From IMG/VR virus record IMGVR_UViG_3300009420_000021, positions 1 through 43,775 of that record: a DNA stretch of 43,775 nt. The stretch is one strand, 5' to 3'. Shown here piece by piece: positions 34,868 to 43,723 of this stretch. Within the stretch, counting starts at the first letter, position 1, and each line of letters starts with the position of its first letter. Origin of the DNA: a virus. Both the position numbers and the translations under genes were made by a program. A model generated the notes under the pieces. The model made no database searches. It saw nothing but the letters and a program-made list of their open reading frames with translations, and was not told the origin of the DNA.

Positions 34868-35805
34868 TATCTAGCTCCTGATGATAAGTTAGAGGATACA
34901 GAAGCTATCAAAGTTGCCTTGTATTCATCATAAGCCGCTCTAGCCGCTAATGGTCTTGATCTACCACTATTGTTATTATAGTTTGCTGGATCTGCTCTTT
35001 CAAATATGTGAAAGAAATGAAATGTGGAATTTGTATCATCCTTATCTCCATCAAAGTTAGTTATATTCATCTCATTACTTAAATGATTCCAACAATCATG
35101 TGGTACGCCTGTCTTCATATCATATATTAAAAACTTTAACTGTAGGAAAAGATCGTAGGGATCTTCGTTTAAGTCAGAAGCATATGCCTCAACTCTTTGC
35201 CATCTACCCACTCCTGAGTTCCATTGAGCAATACCTCTAGAGTCTTCTGAGCCAGCCGACACAGCTTTAGGATCAAAGTTGCTTTCTATTTCTAGGTTAC
35301 CACAAACACCAGCCGCTGATTTTATCGGAAGGCCATTACTAATTAAAAAGTCCATGACCAAAACTCTTAACTGTCTTATTTCAGCACTACCATTTTCATA
35401 CATCTGACGTTGTTGTTCAGATACTGTAACACCTTCTTTACCAATGTTTTTAGAATCAAGAAGATTTACTCTTCCAGATTCAGCCGCCGCTTTTACTTGA
35501 GAAGAAGAGGGCTGTTCTATATGACTCATAGAACCAATTATCATAGGATTTTGAGAAGCTTTACCGTCCAAGAAGATCCCAAATACTAAAGCATTATTCT
35601 TCAACTGTGGTATTCTACCTACACCAGATACTCCACCCTCTGTAGTCGGCATGACTGTTTCAGCCCAAGGTAGAAACTTATCTTCAACTTCTTGAGAGTG
35701 TACACCAAATATTCTTACTTGAAATCTACCAGCCTGTTGAGGATCATTACCATTAATAACTCTCGCAACAAACCACCTATTATTATCGCCATAGTATTCA
35801 TTCAT
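34867..35805 (-). CDS. Hub OB-fold protein with tail lysozyme domain (gp5 N-terminal equivalent)
   Basis: A 312-residue protein. The ATG at 35805 overlaps the upstream stop by 8 bases; an in-frame TTG at 35826 is less likely. Residues 8-95 are the gp5 OB fold (WFVARVINGNDPQQAGRFQV, FLPWAETVMPTTEGG, NALVFGIFLDGKASQNPMII). Residues about 142-300 are a phage tail-lysozyme domain: AAGVCGNLEIESNFDPKAVS with candidate catalytic Glu174, then SRGIAQWNSGVGRWQRVEAY. In T4 these functions and the beta-helix are one protein, gp5; here the helix is separate. It would cut the glycan strands of murein during tube penetration. Confidence 0.85.
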   Translation of the reverse strand: MNEYYGDNNRWFVARVINGNDPQQAGRFQVRIFGVHSQEVEDKFLPWAETVMPTTEGGVSGVGRIPQLKNNALVFGIFLDGKASQNPMIIGSMSHIEQPSSSQVKAAAESGRVNLLDSKNIGKEGVTVSEQQRQMYENGSAEIRQLRVLVMDFLISNGLPIKSAAGVCGNLEIESNFDPKAVSAGSEDSRGIAQWNSGVGRWQRVEAYASDLNEDPYDLFLQLKFLIYDMKTGVPHDCWNHLSNEMNITNFDGDKDDTNSTFHFFHIFERADPANYNNNSGRSRPLAARAAYDEYKATLIASVSSNLSSGAR

Positions 35806-37153
35806 TAGAAATACTCCGACTAGCAAGTTTACATAGATCTAGAGAAACATTATGTTTCCCACCCGCAACATCTAAACAATGGCGTTTAGCAAGTATCACA
35901 AATCTTCCAGATCTCTTCTCATCAATTCTTCCCCCAACAACATGACTTATATCATTTTTATATATTATCATAGATATCTGATGCCCGACACAAGTTTCTA
36001 TGTTGTTCATTGAAAATAGTATTCCGGGGACATTTATGTTATATTTGTTTTTTAGCAAATGTGCTATAATACTTCTTTTAGTCAATTTAAAAGTTTCATT
36101 TACTTCGTTGTATTCTTGATCAAATCCATTAGCATCATCATAGGGATTGGTGACTACTCTAGTATGTATCTTTGAATTAAAATCAGTTATTTTGGATTGA
36201 TCTATTTTTTTAGGATCTGATATAAACTTACTATCAAAGGCAATGAAGTTTTGATCTTTTGGAAGTAATTCTGCTTCTATTAACTTACTGAAATACCTGT
36301 TCATATCCTGATGATATATAAAGTTTATTCCCGTAGTTGCATTAATAGATTCGTACTGAGACCCCATTCCCCCCGCTAATGCTAGGTCTAAAGTATTCTC
36401 TGCAAGACCTGATTCGAAATGTGTTATGTTCGTAGCTTGAGATTCTATATCATTCTTATTGACGTTTTCCTGATCGTATACGAATGGTTTCATATGATTA
36501 AAGGATTGAGTATTAATAATAGTTTCAAGATCAGTCAAGTAAAAGTTATCATCTACTATAGATGAGTAAAAGAAAAATGGATAGCCATTAGCTGTAGACA
36601 TTTTAGTCAATATAGTTTTAATAGCAGTTAGTGGATCTTGATAAGGAACAATGTATCTAAAGGATGCTTGTGCGGCTTCTTTTTTGCTTTCAATAATAAG
36701 TTCTCTACCAAGTTTATCTTTTACAATGTTTTTTATTATTTGCTCACCAGTTCCTGTGTATGCTTTACTAAACTTGTTTAAGTCGTTATAGAACTTTATA
36801 TCTTCAACCAAAGATAGCGATACTATTGAGGAGTAATCGTTAGATTTTATACTATCAGTAATTTCTTCTACAACAAAAGTTTTAATTATTGATTTCGTAG
36901 TTTGATCAGGAACTACAAACTCTAATACTATTCTTTCAGTTCCATTAATATCTGCTTGTGTATAAATGTCTTGATCATCTTGAAGAATAATATCTCCTGT
37001 CAAATATCCAAGTGTTAAGTTTTCGTATATATTGAATTCAATAACAATGCCAGAGTCGGATGCATTAGAGAATATTAATGGCTCACTGAATCGTTCAGAC
37101 TCCATTCTAATACTAATTATTTTTAGTTGTTCCGCTGATACTATATCTGACAT
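35798..37153 (-). CDS. Baseplate hub protein, gp27-like
   Basis: A 451-residue protein beginning SDIVSAEQLKIISIRMESER, followed by short beta strands (GIVIEFNIYENLTLGYLTGD) as in hub proteins that form the trimeric torus linking tube and spike (T4 gp27, P2 gpD, VgrG N-part). A TAIKTILTKM helix and a C-terminal FVILAKRHCLDVAGGKHNVS strand fit the hub fold. Length is near T4 gp27 (391). It lies directly upstream of the OB/lysozyme gene, as hub and spike genes commonly do. I infer the fold from position and pattern, not from a clear family motif. Confidence 0.6.
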   Translation of the reverse strand: MSDIVSAEQLKIISIRMESERFSEPLIFSNASDSGIVIEFNIYENLTLGYLTGDIILQDDQDIYTQADINGTERIVLEFVVPDQTTKSIIKTFVVEEITDSIKSNDYSSIVSLSLVEDIKFYNDLNKFSKAYTGTGEQIIKNIVKDKLGRELIIESKKEAAQASFRYIVPYQDPLTAIKTILTKMSTANGYPFFFYSSIVDDNFYLTDLETIINTQSFNHMKPFVYDQENVNKNDIESQATNITHFESGLAENTLDLALAGGMGSQYESINATTGINFIYHQDMNRYFSKLIEAELLPKDQNFIAFDSKFISDPKKIDQSKITDFNSKIHTRVVTNPYDDANGFDQEYNEVNETFKLTKRSIIAHLLKNKYNINVPGILFSMNNIETCVGHQISMIIYKNDISHVVGGRIDEKRSGRFVILAKRHCLDVAGGKHNVSLDLCKLASRSISNE

Positions 37154-37154
37154 A

Positions 37155-38213
37155 TTAACTTCTTAATAGTTTCTGAAATTCGCTGTTTACTTGAGATACA
37201 ACATTAGGTTTAAATATGTTTATTCTACGCAAGGTATCATTAGATTCGATGAGACGATCCAAATGTGTAACTGGAGTATGACTTACAAACGATGTTCTGT
37301 TTTCTACACCACCACCAGCAACTATAGTTAAATCAGATTCTTCACCACTTGCATTATTATAGTGATGAGGAGCATTATACTGATTAACATTACTATGTAT
37401 TATTAAACTTCGAACTAGGTCATCGTCCCATAGCAACACATTTGGTTGATTACGTTGAGAGTAAATGGTTGTGCTGTTAGGAAGACTGAAGCTTGAAAGT
37501 ACTGAGGTTGCTGTAGCCTGTGTTCCATTTGCGATGTTAGGTTCTGATATAATAACTCTGGGAGCACTCGTATATCCTTCACCACCTGTTGTGACTGCTA
37601 TAGATTGTATTGTCTGTGAGACTTTGACTTCACTACCATCCAAATAGGTCATAACTGCTTGCCCAGTTGCACCTGTTCCACCACCCCCAGCGAGGGTTAT
37701 AGTAGGCGGTGAGGTGTAACCAGTGCCACCATTAGTCAGAGATATTGACCTAACATCAATAATAGGCTTCACTGTTATCTGTCCAAGATCATAGTTCTTC
37801 TCTAAAATCTTACCTTTGAACACTGTACCAAACTCATCAGAGTTAACACGATCCGCAACAAGATCTCCAATATAAAACTCTCCATGCATTGCCGCTGTAG
37901 ATTTTAATATTCTATTAGGATAATATACTTTAGCAAGATCATTTATTTTATAATTGTCCTGAGGCCAACCTTGTATACGCAACTTTTCATTTAACAAAAA
38001 GAAAGTCCAATACAAATCGACATTGCCATATAACTCATATGAAAGAATATCAGGTCTTGATGCATCATCGATATAATACTCTTCGTAGAATGTTGCGTCA
38101 TCTGCTATCTGATCAACAAGATCTATGTAAGCAGTTAAGTTTTGAAATGCTGTATCAGAAGTCTCTGTTCCAAAATTATAATTAACAACTGGAAAGTTTC
38201 TAAAAAATGCCAT
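37155..38213 (-). CDS. gp53: Baseplate wedge protein gp53 with inserted GGxGYTSxP repeats
   Basis: A 352-residue protein using the ATG at 38213, one base after the upstream stop; an in-frame TTG at 38249 inside the gp48 gene is rejected. RPDILSYELYGNVDLYWTFF, then LLNEK, matches the T4 gp53 core (RPEELANAIYGNPQLYWVLL, MCND). Residues about 150-240 are an insertion with two beta units, GGTGYTSPPTITLAGGGGTG and GGEGYTSAPRVIISEP, absent from T4 gp53 (196 residues). gp53 locks adjacent wedges around the hub. Co-transcribed with gp48 and the hub genes. Confidence 0.85.
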   Translation of the reverse strand: MAFFRNFPVVNYNFGTETSDTAFQNLTAYIDLVDQIADDATFYEEYYIDDASRPDILSYELYGNVDLYWTFFLLNEKLRIQGWPQDNYKINDLAKVYYPNRILKSTAAMHGEFYIGDLVADRVNSDEFGTVFKGKILEKNYDLGQITVKPIIDVRSISLTNGGTGYTSPPTITLAGGGGTGATGQAVMTYLDGSEVKVSQTIQSIAVTTGGEGYTSAPRVIISEPNIANGTQATATSVLSSFSLPNSTTIYSQRNQPNVLLWDDDLVRSLIIHSNVNQYNAPHHYNNASGEESDLTIVAGGGVENRTSFVSHTPVTHLDRLIESNDTLRRINIFKPNVVSQVNSEFQKLLRS

Positions 38214-38214
38214 G

Positions 38215-39240
38215 TTAAAATCCCGTCCCAAACGTATAGTCTTCACCAAGTGCGGCGGCTTCTTCTATAATATCTCTCTTAGTCAAAGGTCTTTCTTCAA
38301 CAAAGTTTAGTGATATATCAGTTTCTTGAAAGTTACCATCTTTATGAAACGCCATTCCTGTTGCGTTATAAACAACATCAACACCTTGCAGAAAAGATGG
38401 CAATATTCTTGTAGCAACTTTCTTCTTATCATAAAATAACTTTATGTTAAATTTACTAGGAAATCTAAGTGCCGCTGTTATCGCATCATCAGATGTGTCA
38501 GGATACATTTCTTCTCTAAAAAACTGAACTATTCTTTTTACTTCCTCTGCTTCTTCTGGAGAGGTTGGTATCATTTTAAACGAAAATCTAAATTGCCTTA
38601 TACCAATACCTCTTAGAGTAGATCTTCTATTAGGGTTTAAGGCTATTCCTGTTTGAGTTTCGATAGCACCTTGTGCTTCAGCATTTATTTTACTAGACAC
38701 TCTAAGTGCGGCAACTTGAGCACCCTCGCTCTGTAAACCTTTACTGAATGCTTCTTGTACAGAAGCAAAATCAGGAAGAATGTTTCCAGCAACGGCACTA
38801 GCAACACCGCCACCAGTTCTTCCACGAGCTAATGCTTTTTCTGCCGCCGATCCAATGATACCAAGATCAATTCCAGTATACTCTACAGTATCTTGAAACT
38901 GTAATGCTTGAGGTAAATATAACGAAGCTTTGCGACCAGCACCAATACGTGGTGGAATTTTACCTCTTTTAGTTTTTTGTACACCCAAAAAAGCCGCCAT
39001 ATTAACTTGATTAACTTGTGTTTTATTAGGATCAGCATTAGCATCTGGTTGTGCGGAGTTTACTGCATTAACACCTTCTACTCCCGCTTTAAACCCTGTC
39101 TGTGCTAGAGTAAGATAAGCTTCTTGAACTGCTTCAAAAGTGATACGTCCTTTATATCCATCATCTTCTAATGGGAATTTAAAACTGCTTTTAGCCAGTT
39201 CTTTATTGCCAGCCGCTCCATAGCGTTTGTAATATGCCAT
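38215..39240 (-). CDS. gp48: Baseplate tail-tube cap, gp48-like
   Basis: A 341-residue protein close in length to T4 gp48 (364). The C-terminal half holds FRFSFKMIPTSPEEAEEVKR, then IVQFFREEMYPDTSDD, which is the tube-like fold pattern shared by gp48/gp54, and a RFPSKFNIKLFYDKK strand. The N-terminal part has an AELAKSS-type lead and LTLAQTGFKAGVEGVNA helix. T4 gp48 sits on the hub and starts the tail tube. First gene of the minus-strand baseplate unit; AAGGA precedes the ATG and a perfect late promoter lies at 39274-39281. Confidence 0.8.
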   Translation of the reverse strand: MAYYKRYGAAGNKELAKSSFKFPLEDDGYKGRITFEAVQEAYLTLAQTGFKAGVEGVNAVNSAQPDANADPNKTQVNQVNMAAFLGVQKTKRGKIPPRIGAGRKASLYLPQALQFQDTVEYTGIDLGIIGSAAEKALARGRTGGGVASAVAGNILPDFASVQEAFSKGLQSEGAQVAALRVSSKINAEAQGAIETQTGIALNPNRRSTLRGIGIRQFRFSFKMIPTSPEEAEEVKRIVQFFREEMYPDTSDDAITAALRFPSKFNIKLFYDKKKVATRILPSFLQGVDVVYNATGMAFHKDGNFQETDISLNFVEERPLTKRDIIEEAAALGEDYTFGTGF

Positions 39241-41185: not shown

Positions 41186-41893
41186 ATGGCACTACCTAAA
41201 CTAAATGATAAACCAAAGTATGAACTCGTTATACCTTCAACAAAACAGAAAGTAAAATTTAGACCTTATCTTGTAAAGGAAGAAAAGGTTTTAATGTTGG
41301 CAATGGAAAGTCAAGATCAAATACAAATCTTTGAAGCCATTGCTGATACTATTGAAGCCTGTGTTGATGATGATATTGATAAAAATGTATTAACTACATT
41401 TGACATAGAATATATGTTTGTTAAAATTAGAACGAAGTCAGTAGGAGAAAGTATTAAACTTATACCAAAATGTAGTGAATGTGAAGCAGAAAACGAAATT
41501 AGTATTGGCCTAGACGAAATTATAGTAGACATTCCAGAAGGAAACAATATTATTAAAATAAGTGATGATATCAATATTAAAATGAGGTGGCCTTCGTTTC
41601 TCAGTGTATTAAGTGATGATGTTATAAATGACAAGTCTGAAACTGAACAAACCTTTAAGATGATTAGTAAATGTATTGAATCTGTTATGACCGAAGATGA
41701 GAATATGATGTTTAAAGATGAACCTAAAAAAGATCAAATGGAGTTTATCGAGTCTTTGAATAATGAACAGTTTAATGCAATACGTGAGTTTGTAGAAAAG
41801 ATGCCATCGTTAGAACATGATGCTTCTTATAAATGTAATGCTTGTGAACATGATAATGAACTTAAACTAAAAGGAATGAGTGATTTTTTTTAA
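41186..41893 (+). CDS. gp26: Baseplate hub assembly protein gp26 (T4_baseplate family), zero-frame product
   Basis: A 235-residue protein of the T4 gp26/gp51 family (T4 gp26 has 208 residues). It opens PKLNDKPKYELVIPSTKQKV, then KFRPYLVKEEKVLMLA, the family signature, followed by an acidic helical body. Two CxxC pairs (C96/C99 in KCSECE and C217/C220 in KCNACE) look like a zinc ribbon. AAAGGATTG serves as ribosome site. The stop TAA at 41891-41893 is immediately preceded by a run of T. The -1 frame continues for 64 codons to the tape-measure start (see 41890-42084). This is the position and layout of a tail-assembly chaperone upstream of a tape measure. Confidence 0.85.
   Translation: MALPKLNDKPKYELVIPSTKQKVKFRPYLVKEEKVLMLAMESQDQIQIFEAIADTIEACVDDDIDKNVLTTFDIEYMFVKIRTKSVGESIKLIPKCSECEAENEISIGLDEIIVDIPEGNNIIKISDDINIKMRWPSFLSVLSDDVINDKSETEQTFKMISKCIESVMTEDENMMFKDEPKKDQMEFIESLNNEQFNAIREFVEKMPSLEHDASYKCNACEHDNELKLKGMSDFF
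41870..41875 (+). promoter_or_regulatory. Shine-Dalgarno-like frameshift stimulator
   Basis: AAAGGA inside the gp26 reading frame, 8 bases upstream of the T run. There is no start codon in either frame that would make it a normal ribosome site for the extension. In E. coli dnaX an internal Shine-Dalgarno at about this distance promotes -1 slippage. Confidence 0.55.
41884..41891 (+). other. T8 slippery run at the end of gp26
   Basis: Eight T residues read GAT TTT TTT TAA in the zero frame. Heptamer T-TTT-TTT (41884-41890) permits both tRNAs to slip back one base and continue as TTA ATA TCT. The -1 frame has a TGA at 41881-41883 and the zero frame stops at 41891-41893, so the change of frame can occur only inside this run. 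Confidence 0.75.
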
Positions 41894-42084
41894 TATCTCT
41901 TTCTCATGATAACCTAGTTAACTACTACCAAGTTAACTTTCAGTTGATGCAGAATCATAATTATTCGTTAGAAGACGTTGAAAATATGATGCCATGGGAA
42001 AGAGAAATCTACCTATCAATGTTGATAGACCAGATTAAAAAACAAAATGAAGATGCTGAAAGGCAAAGGATGAACAATGGCTGA
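41890..42084 (+). CDS. -1 frame extension of gp26 (predicted frameshift product, 299 residues in total)
   Basis: After -1 slippage the frame is open for 64 codons: LISLSHDNLVNYYQVNFQLM, QNHNYSLEDVENMMPWEREI, YLSMLIDQIKKQNEDAERQR, ending MNNG. The M-M-P-W-E-R-E-I-Y helix and charged end look like a real protein and not random translation. The stop TGA (42082-42084) overlaps the tape-measure ATG (42077) by 8 bases. An independent start (ATG at 41947) would make only 45 residues and has no ribosome site. The layout matches gpG/gpGT of lambda and E/E' of P2, in which the longer product binds the tape measure during tail assembly. Confidence 0.75.
   Translation, partial: LISLSHDNLVNYYQVNFQLMQNHNYSLEDVENMMPWEREIYLSMLIDQIKKQNEDAERQRMNNG
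41916..41938 (+). other. Perfect hairpin downstream of slippery run
   Basis: AGTTAACT (41916-41923) and AGTTAACT (41931-41938) are self-complementary copies that form an 8-bp stem with a 7-base loop (ACTACCA). It begins 25 bases after the slippery heptamer, farther than usual frameshift stimulators, so its role is uncertain. Confidence 0.5.
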
Positions 42085-43723
42085 AGATAACAACTTTAAA
42101 GATCTCGTAAAAAGCATGAAAGCTAATACGGAAATGGCAACGCATAATAACGATGCCATTATGGATTTGAATAAAACCTTTTCTGATTATTTTACTATGT
42201 TGTCACGACAGACTAAAGATCAAGAAGAAAATTCCAGAGAGAGTAAAAAATCTACTAGAGTTGCAAAATCATCACCTAAAGATCATTTTGGTTTAGGTAA
42301 TAATAGCATGAACTTTCTTGGAGGATTTGCTGGTGTAGGAAAAACTATAGCATTAGTAACCGCTGGAGTTGCATCTTTCGGTCTTGCCTTTGCTGGTCTC
42401 AGAGGTTGGGAACTACCAGCTTTAAAAGCCCTATCTAAGTTAACTGTGATATCTAGTCAAGATGGCGTTATTTTTAAAGGTATTCAAGCTCTTAGGGCAG
42501 GGGCATTAGCAACGTTTGGATTTTTAAATCCTGTTGTTCCTGATCCGACACGTGTTCCTATTTCAATGCAGATACAAGCGCAACTTACAAAAGTAAAAAC
42601 TGGTTTTTTGAAAGCGTTTGGATTAGGACCAAACGGATTACCTTTTGCAGAAAGAGGATTTTTTGGAAAGGGTGGTACGGCTGTAGGAAAAGGTGGTATT
42701 GCTATTGGGGTTATAACTACACAAATAGGAAAGTTACTGAAACCACTTACCGATGTTGGTGCTGGCATTGGTAAATTTATTGGTGGCGCAGGTGCTGATG
42801 TGTTTGCATCTATCGCAAAATTCGGTGGTAGTGCTGGAGCATGGTTAGGGATAGTAGGAAAAATATTTAAACCTATAGGTATTATATTCTCCCTTAAAGC
42901 CGCTTTCGATAAATTTATGAGCAGTGACAAGGATATGGCGGGTGCAACCTCAGATGGTATTTCTTGGTTCTTTAGTGATTTTTTTGGAGCACCTCTAGAT
43001 CTATTAAAAACTCTACTAGGAAAGGTGTTTGGACTTTTAGGTTTTGATGATGTGAAAAATACTTTAGATAATCTTAGTATAACAGATAAGCTTTTCGAAT
43101 TTTTCAATAAGATTTTAGCAGTCCCAACTGCGATGTTTAGATTTTTTCTTACTCTGTTTAAATCTCCTAGCGAAGCATTTAAGGGTTTGATGGAAGATCT
43201 TGGTAATATAGCAAAACCTTTTTTCGATTTGGTTAGTTGGCTCACTGACTCGGTGTCAAATTGGGTAAAAGGTGTTGTGAATAAAATAAGGGCAAAAATT
43301 GGATTAGATCCATTAGAAGATGTCGTTTATGAGGGTATAAATCAGCAACAACTTAATAGTATTGTCAGTTCCGATAAGAATAAAGATGGCATACTGTCAA
43401 AAGCAGAACTTGATGCCAATCTCCCTAACAGCTTTGGTGGGAAACAGTTGAGGGCGGCTATTGACGCTCTTAGTTCAAATCAATTCAAAATGTTAGGTGA
43501 TAGTATATCATACTCAGCCGCACTTTTAGGAGAAGGTCTTTCAGTCAATAAAAGATTTGACGATATAAACGCCAAAGGGTTTGGATATAATCAGTTCTTA
43601 AATGCTTCAACTAATGTTGGCGATACTATTAATGTTCATAAATATCAAGGTCCATCAGTCCCATCAATGTCGGCAGTCGATAGAAGACAACTCAATCAAA
43701 TAAAAAATTCCATGATGCAATAA
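42077..43723 (+). CDS. gp29: Tail tape measure / hub protein, gp29-like
   Basis: A 548-residue protein (T4 gp29 has 590). Residues 1-65 are polar and helical. A hydrophobic segment at 91-108 (IALVTAGVASFGLAFAGL) and long Gly/Ala/Phe/Lys-rich amphipathic stretches follow (GKFIGGAGADVFASIAKFGG; PIGIIFSLKAAFDKF), as in tape measure proteins. Residues 433-444 form a canonical EF-hand loop (DKNKDGILSKAE). It follows the gp26 frameshift extension with an 8-base overlap; AAAGGATG serves as ribosome site. Length sets the tube length, so a tail slightly shorter than T4's is expected. The identification rests on position, composition and length. Confidence 0.8.
   Translation: MAEDNNFKDLVKSMKANTEMATHNNDAIMDLNKTFSDYFTMLSRQTKDQEENSRESKKSTRVAKSSPKDHFGLGNNSMNFLGGFAGVGKTIALVTAGVASFGLAFAGLRGWELPALKALSKLTVISSQDGVIFKGIQALRAGALATFGFLNPVVPDPTRVPISMQIQAQLTKVKTGFLKAFGLGPNGLPFAERGFFGKGGTAVGKGGIAIGVITTQIGKLLKPLTDVGAGIGKFIGGAGADVFASIAKFGGSAGAWLGIVGKIFKPIGIIFSLKAAFDKFMSSDKDMAGATSDGISWFFSDFFGAPLDLLKTLLGKVFGLLGFDDVKNTLDNLSITDKLFEFFNKILAVPTAMFRFFLTLFKSPSEAFKGLMEDLGNIAKPFFDLVSWLTDSVSNWVKGVVNKIRAKIGLDPLEDVVYEGINQQQLNSIVSSDKNKDGILSKAELDANLPNSFGGKQLRAAIDALSSNQFKMLGDSISYSAALLGEGLSVNKRFDDINAKGFGYNQFLNASTNVGDTINVHKYQGPSVPSMSAVDRRQLNQIKNSMMQ

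Follow-up and report, generated by a model that had tools for sequence, protein, structure and literature searches.

A gp26-like gene of a T4-like phage with a conserved T-run site at which a -1 frameshift would add a gp51-like part

Whether one gene may supply a T4-like phage with both a gp26-like and a gp51-like protein is the question raised by a locus near the end of the window, the 43,775-base virus record that was analysed here over its full length. The gp26-like gene on the plus strand (41186-41893) starts with ATG at 41186, comprises 235 codons and ends in the zero frame with GAT TTT TTT TAA. Its T8 run lies at 41884-41891 and contains the slippery heptamer T_TTT_TTT (41884-41890), directly 3' of which stands the zero-frame stop TAA (41891-41893); in relatives the corresponding stop lies 2-11 codons from the site. 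The nearest upstream stop in the -1 frame is a TGA at 41881-41883 that adjoins the run, and entry into the -1 frame is therefore confined to 41884-41891. Read in the -1 frame from the T run, the sequence gives FF LISLSHDNLVNYYQVNFQLMQNHNYSLEDVENMMPWEREIYLSMLIDQIKKQNEDAERQRMNNG, then the stop TGA at 42082-42084. This plus-strand extension (41890-42084, 64 codons and TGA) would yield a predicted fusion product of 299 residues, and it ends 8 bases past the ATG (42077) of the next gene. Each of these positions, as an earlier note on this DNA had given them for the run, the two flanking stops, the 64 open codons and the 8-base overlap, was rechecked and found correct. The locus thus has the layout of a -1 site, with an X_XXY_YYZ heptamer in the zero frame, a -1 stop directly upstream and a zero-frame stop directly downstream. 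T8 occurs only once across both strands of the window, and among XXXYYYZ heptamers (X = A, T or G) in all window ORFs of at least 100 aa, this is the only one that opens at least 30 codons beyond the zero-frame stop. An open stretch of 64 codons would by itself arise by chance with a probability of about 0.006, and the sequences of relatives provide far stronger evidence than such estimates from within the window.

The two parts of the locus belong to recognizable families. The window gp26 matches PF12322 (T4_baseplate, E=1.5e-61) over positions 2-218 of 219, that is, over the full domain, as well as phrog_150 (E=8e-64), and is 41-46% identical to gp26 of named Kyanoviridae. The -1 extension alone matches phrog_634, annotated as baseplate hub assembly catalyst (E=3.4e-25, positions 56-117 of 121), a match by which it is identified as the C-terminal part of gp51 of the T4 gp51 family; it also matches the final 50 positions of phrog_150 (231-279, E=2e-9). 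When the extension was used as a tblastn query, matches were obtained in 1399 phage records, the largest groups being Synechococcus, Escherichia and Klebsiella phages. The AlphaFold model of the window gp26 has a pLDDT of 90.7. A fold search of the PDB with this structure returned no significant match to solved tail-assembly chaperones, the HK97 chaperone 2ob9 being a weak match (E=2.6, prob 0.38, TM 0.47 on target), and a sequence search of the PDB for a solved homologue likewise gave nothing significant. The best named Foldseek matches in a viral library were other gp26-type baseplate proteins, which add no new function.

T4 clarifies how the two parts are related. In T4, 44RR and Thanatos-2, genes 26 and 51 are two separate, divergent genes, as the earlier note had said of T4; what can be sharpened is their relationship. 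Both T4 proteins match PF12322 (gp26, 8.8e-64; gp51, 3.9e-52), and gp51, a continuous protein, does so over 1-219 and matches phrog_150 over 13-280, a span that includes the extension. T4 gp26 ends in ...FFELL, at the same place as the short form. Direct BLASTP of T4 gp26 against gp51 gives 2e-6, and profile comparison of the window gp26 with T4-type gp51 gives 2e-12; in the predicted folds of the latter two the elements follow one another in largely the same order, with three extra C-terminal helices in gp51. On these comparisons T4 gp26 and gp51 are homologues within one family in which gp51 carries both parts, and T4 thus has two genes where the window phage would use slippage.

The alignment of relatives for which the earlier note had asked bears most directly on the site. 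With the window gp26 as reference, 98 homologous sequences were located, a few of them near-duplicates, and 95 carry the slippery T_TTT_TT in zero-frame register shortly ahead of the gp26 stop, with a homologous extension in the -1 frame; the three exceptions are of the Ackermannviridae type. The named Kyanoviridae that share the run are C48C1, Mosig, Melnitz-3, S-PM2, P-SSM2, ACG-2014j/e and AG-345-F15, and in these and 80 IMG/VR loci gp26 ends in the same run, and every contig that reaches far enough shows the extension in -1. The codon that precedes the run is NNT and the first Phe codon is TTT without exception, and from gp26 codon usage a naive P of about 10^-34 is obtained for the slippery form, a value that ignores kinship and overstates the significance because the sequences are related. 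By comparison, only 5 of the 54 Phe-Phe pairs found elsewhere in the same genes take the slippery form. The extension is under purifying selection, with a median dN/dS of 0.12 (142 pairs of homologues), and its 11773 differences in 262 pairs are distributed 3623/1740/6410 over the three -1 codon positions, an excess at the third position.

The same sequences bear on two ways in which the frame relation might arise without ribosomal slippage. Homopolymer runs are prone to errors, and the true gene could in principle be a single uninterrupted frame. However, among the 95 sequences the run consists of six Ts in 43, seven in 16, eight in 35 and nine in one, and the extension is in the -1 frame in all of them; since this relation holds in named phages as well as in viral contigs that were sequenced independently, for run lengths from 6 to 9 and for different bases after the run, an assembly or sequencing error can be excluded with near certainty. 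RNA polymerase might instead slip on the run, giving mRNAs with other than eight Us from which a normal ribosome would read the fusion. T8, which is long enough for this to be plausible, is found in 35 relatives and T9 in one. However, because 43 of the 95 have only six Ts, transcriptional slippage is very unlikely as the shared mechanism; the seventh base is a C in 35 of the 95, and the conserved phase of the heptamer, together with the Shine-Dalgarno-like element described below, is a mark of ribosomal slippage. In the window phage itself, with its T8, transcriptional slippage could supplement or replace the ribosomal kind.

A further possibility is that the extension is a separate gp51 gene, translated from its own start or by termination-reinitiation just past the gp26 stop. 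This is the annotated layout in many cyanophage records; in those of S-PM2 and P-SSM2 the annotated gp51 begins 3 nt past the gp26 stop. Start codons that follow the site within a few codons, as in some cyanophages including these two, speak against slippage. The first ATG lies at extension codon 5 in 17 of 92 relatives, and 54 of the 92 have some start (ATG, GTG or TTG), either ahead of the site or among extension codons 1-12. However, the other 38 have no start codon there, and in the window the earliest -1 start codon is TTG at 41944, the 19th codon of the extension. The codons ahead of it are constrained, with differences among relatives of 941/562/1753 by codon position over columns 3-20, and this third-position excess in the LSHD.L.NYY.TNF region implies that the region is translated; as TTG 41944 falls only after it, an independent start is hardly possible in the window. 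In addition, a separate gp51 start would leave unexplained the in-register run of at least six Ts in 95 of 98 sequences, and the Shine-Dalgarno-like stretch is too distant from such starts. Independent initiation of gp51 is possible in cyanophages with an early ATG, and as an explanation of the locus at large it has an even smaller probability than transcriptional slippage.

If ribosomal slippage is the preferred reading, elements that stimulate it may be sought on either side of the run. The earlier note had placed AAAGGA 8 bases upstream of the T run, and it is found at 41870-41875 on the plus strand; relatives have GAGGGA, AAAGGA or GAAGGA at positions -14 to -9 before the heptamer. Pairing of this stretch with the anti-Shine-Dalgarno sequence of 16S rRNA averages -6.3 kcal/mol, compared with -5.0 kcal/mol when the peptide is recoded synonymously (paired t -6.9, p=5e-10 among relatives, with kinship ignored), and control windows differ in no such way from their recodings; the AAAGGA of the window has a value of -5.6 kcal/mol. 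The perfect 8-bp hairpin that had been noted downstream is also present (plus strand, 41916-41938, with arms 41916-41923 and 41931-41938 and a 7-nt loop), but its proposed role as a stimulator is doubtful. A distance of 24 nt separates it from the T run, more than is usual for a stimulator, and its stability is ordinary for such a sequence (z -1.0 to -1.5). The RNAalifold consensus of 92 relatives was empty, the stem positions being scattered, although the downstream folds of individual relatives are slightly more stable than a synonymous null (mean z -1.4, a value inflated by kinship). The hairpin was accordingly rejected as a conserved stimulator, and the better-supported one is probably the upstream Shine-Dalgarno-like stretch.

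The reading frames, homology, conservation and coding constraint, all directly observed, permit a model to be proposed for the slippage, its efficiency and the roles of its products. In this model most ribosomes would terminate at TAA 41891 and release the 235-residue gp26-like protein, the short chaperone product and putative equivalent of TAC-N. Some ribosomes would slip back by one base while two Phe-tRNAs occupy U_UUU_UUU; both tRNAs can re-pair there, and the next codon would be TTA (41890-41892). The AAAGGA stretch upstream would probably hold the slipping ribosomes, which would add 64 residues to give the 299-residue protein, a full-length counterpart of T4 gp51. If the lambda G/GT pair is a guide, the tape-measure protein would be coated by the short form, and the long form would connect this protein to the tube or hub. 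It is thus very probable that one gene gives a gp26-like short form and a gp26-gp51-like fusion through -1 ribosomal slippage at T8, as the earlier note had proposed for gp26 and a gp51-like function; the proposal is borne out by the homology of both parts, the near-invariant slippery site, the dN/dS of the -1 frame and the one-frame fusion that T4 gp51 represents.

The design of heptamer and extension extends well beyond the Kyanoviridae. It is also found in Emdodecavirus, Pootjesviridae, Menderavirus, Schizotequatrovirus, Ishigurovirus, Chrysonvirus and Cronobacter S13, in the Sinorhizobium phages phiM19 and phiM9, in Aeromonas ZPAH1, 65 and phiAS5, in Vibrio R11Z, in Pelagibacter HTVC008M, in Pseudoalteromonas XG4 and in a record of 244,834 bases, probably KVP40 (Schizotequatrovirus). 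In the three Aeromonas phages 65, phiAS5 and ZPAH1 (L130, L131 and L094) the extension is intact in -1 after TTTTTTC; gp51 is unannotated in 65 and ZPAH1, and only a 123-nt piece of it is annotated in phiAS5. A different junction is seen in the Ackermannviridae type, where gp26 ends in NTT TTC NNN TAA and a gp51-like extension lies in -1 with no standard heptamer (loci L097, L110-L127 (Ackermannviridae-type), L096, L098 and L136). Here the tetramer U_UUC would be the sole possibility for re-pairing, by one Phe-tRNA; in Kuttervirus the junction reads ATT TTC ATT TAA. The extension of this type is conserved and matches phrog_9633, until now of "unknown function", which has a weak link to phrog_634 (E=0.0027). 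If it is expressed, the superfamily may perhaps make its chaperone pair in three ways, a tentative reading in which heptamer slippage is represented by the window phage, single-tRNA tetramer slippage by the Ackermannviridae type and two homologous genes by T4.

Directly upstream of the gp26-like gene lies a tail-tube-type gene (phrog_45, E=4e-32), and head-closure (gp4-like) and DNA end protector (gp2-like) genes are also upstream. The 548-aa gene on the plus strand that overlaps the extension by 8 bases (42077-43723) had been called the tape measure; its position agrees with this, but comparison with Pfam and PHROGs gave no significant family match, the best tape-measure match having E=0.57, and the gene is a candidate by position only. 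Its product weakly resembles phrog_27688, a family whose function is unknown (E=5e-4). In HTVC008M a putative tail tape measure is annotated at the same position, one small ORF further on. Elsewhere, on the minus strand (35798-39240), lie genes for a tail protein (phrog_350), a baseplate wedge subunit that is glycine-rich in the middle (phrog_232) and a tail tube cap (phrog_230); the wedge and cap ORFs overlap at 38215-38249, and the wedge gene may actually begin at an internal ATG rather than at the TTG.

Several published observations can be read in the light of this locus. In T4, both gp26 and gp51 have been classed as chaperones of hub assembly (PMC3004832). Cyanophage gp51 has been described as about 20% of the length of other gp51 proteins and without the first ~200 aa, and gp51 was reported missing in Aeh1 (Sullivan et al., 2010, PMC3037559). 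Aeh1 does not occur by name among the matches listed, and the Aeromonas phages ZPAH1, 65 and phiAS5 were examined in its place. The "short gp51" of cyanophages, treated by Sullivan et al. as a reduced gene in an article from which the word frameshift is absent, is exactly the extension described here, and the missing part would be supplied from gp26 by the frameshift. A single gene with two products would then stand behind both the "baseplate hub subunit" gp26 and the "gp51" that appears as a stray gene or is missing, in Kyanoviridae as in several further T4-like lineages. On this reading it is explained why cyanophage gp51 (PMC3037559) is short of its first 200 residues, and a gp51 can be proposed for phages that were thought to have none. 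The reading corrects the annotation, a gene annotated as joined having been found in none of the named records examined, and supports a chaperone role for gp26.

The frameshift principle has been known for decades in other phages and since about 2022 in T4-like phages, whose tail-assembly chaperones were identified by Vladimirov, Gautam and Davidson (2022, Virology 566:9-15). The genes of that study, which come in short (TAC-N) and long (TAC-NC) forms as is proposed for the window gene, are presumably the gp26/gp51 genes studied here. According to PMC10885494, which summarises the study, some T4-like phages do without frameshifting and have a short gene alongside a long one, and PMC12846349 names the study as the source for poly-T frameshift signals in the TAC-N genes of T4-like phages; by these citing papers, the chaperone identity of the genes and the two-gene solution of T4 are already published. 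In the Vandenendeviridae and Andersonviridae, phage families other than that of the window, a conserved poly-T -1 site ends the short chaperone frame as it does here, a likeness at the level of the site; that site is an invariant GTTTTT, and the extension is usually misannotated as a separate hypothetical gene (PMC12846349, 2025). T4, 44RR and Thanatos-2 differ in that the long form is a separate one-frame fusion gene, whereas the window phage has one gene with a -1 shift. As in the model proposed here, lambda gpG/gpGT and P2 E/E' combine a short chaperone with a rarer -1 fusion; their gene lies just before the tape-measure gene, as the window gene would if the 548-aa candidate is one. The slippery sequence of lambda is GGGAAAG, compared with T_TTT_TTT in the window, and the likeness rests on layout, not on sequence similarity. 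No new mechanism is thereby established; the locus is a well-supported further case of the known frameshifted chaperone design.
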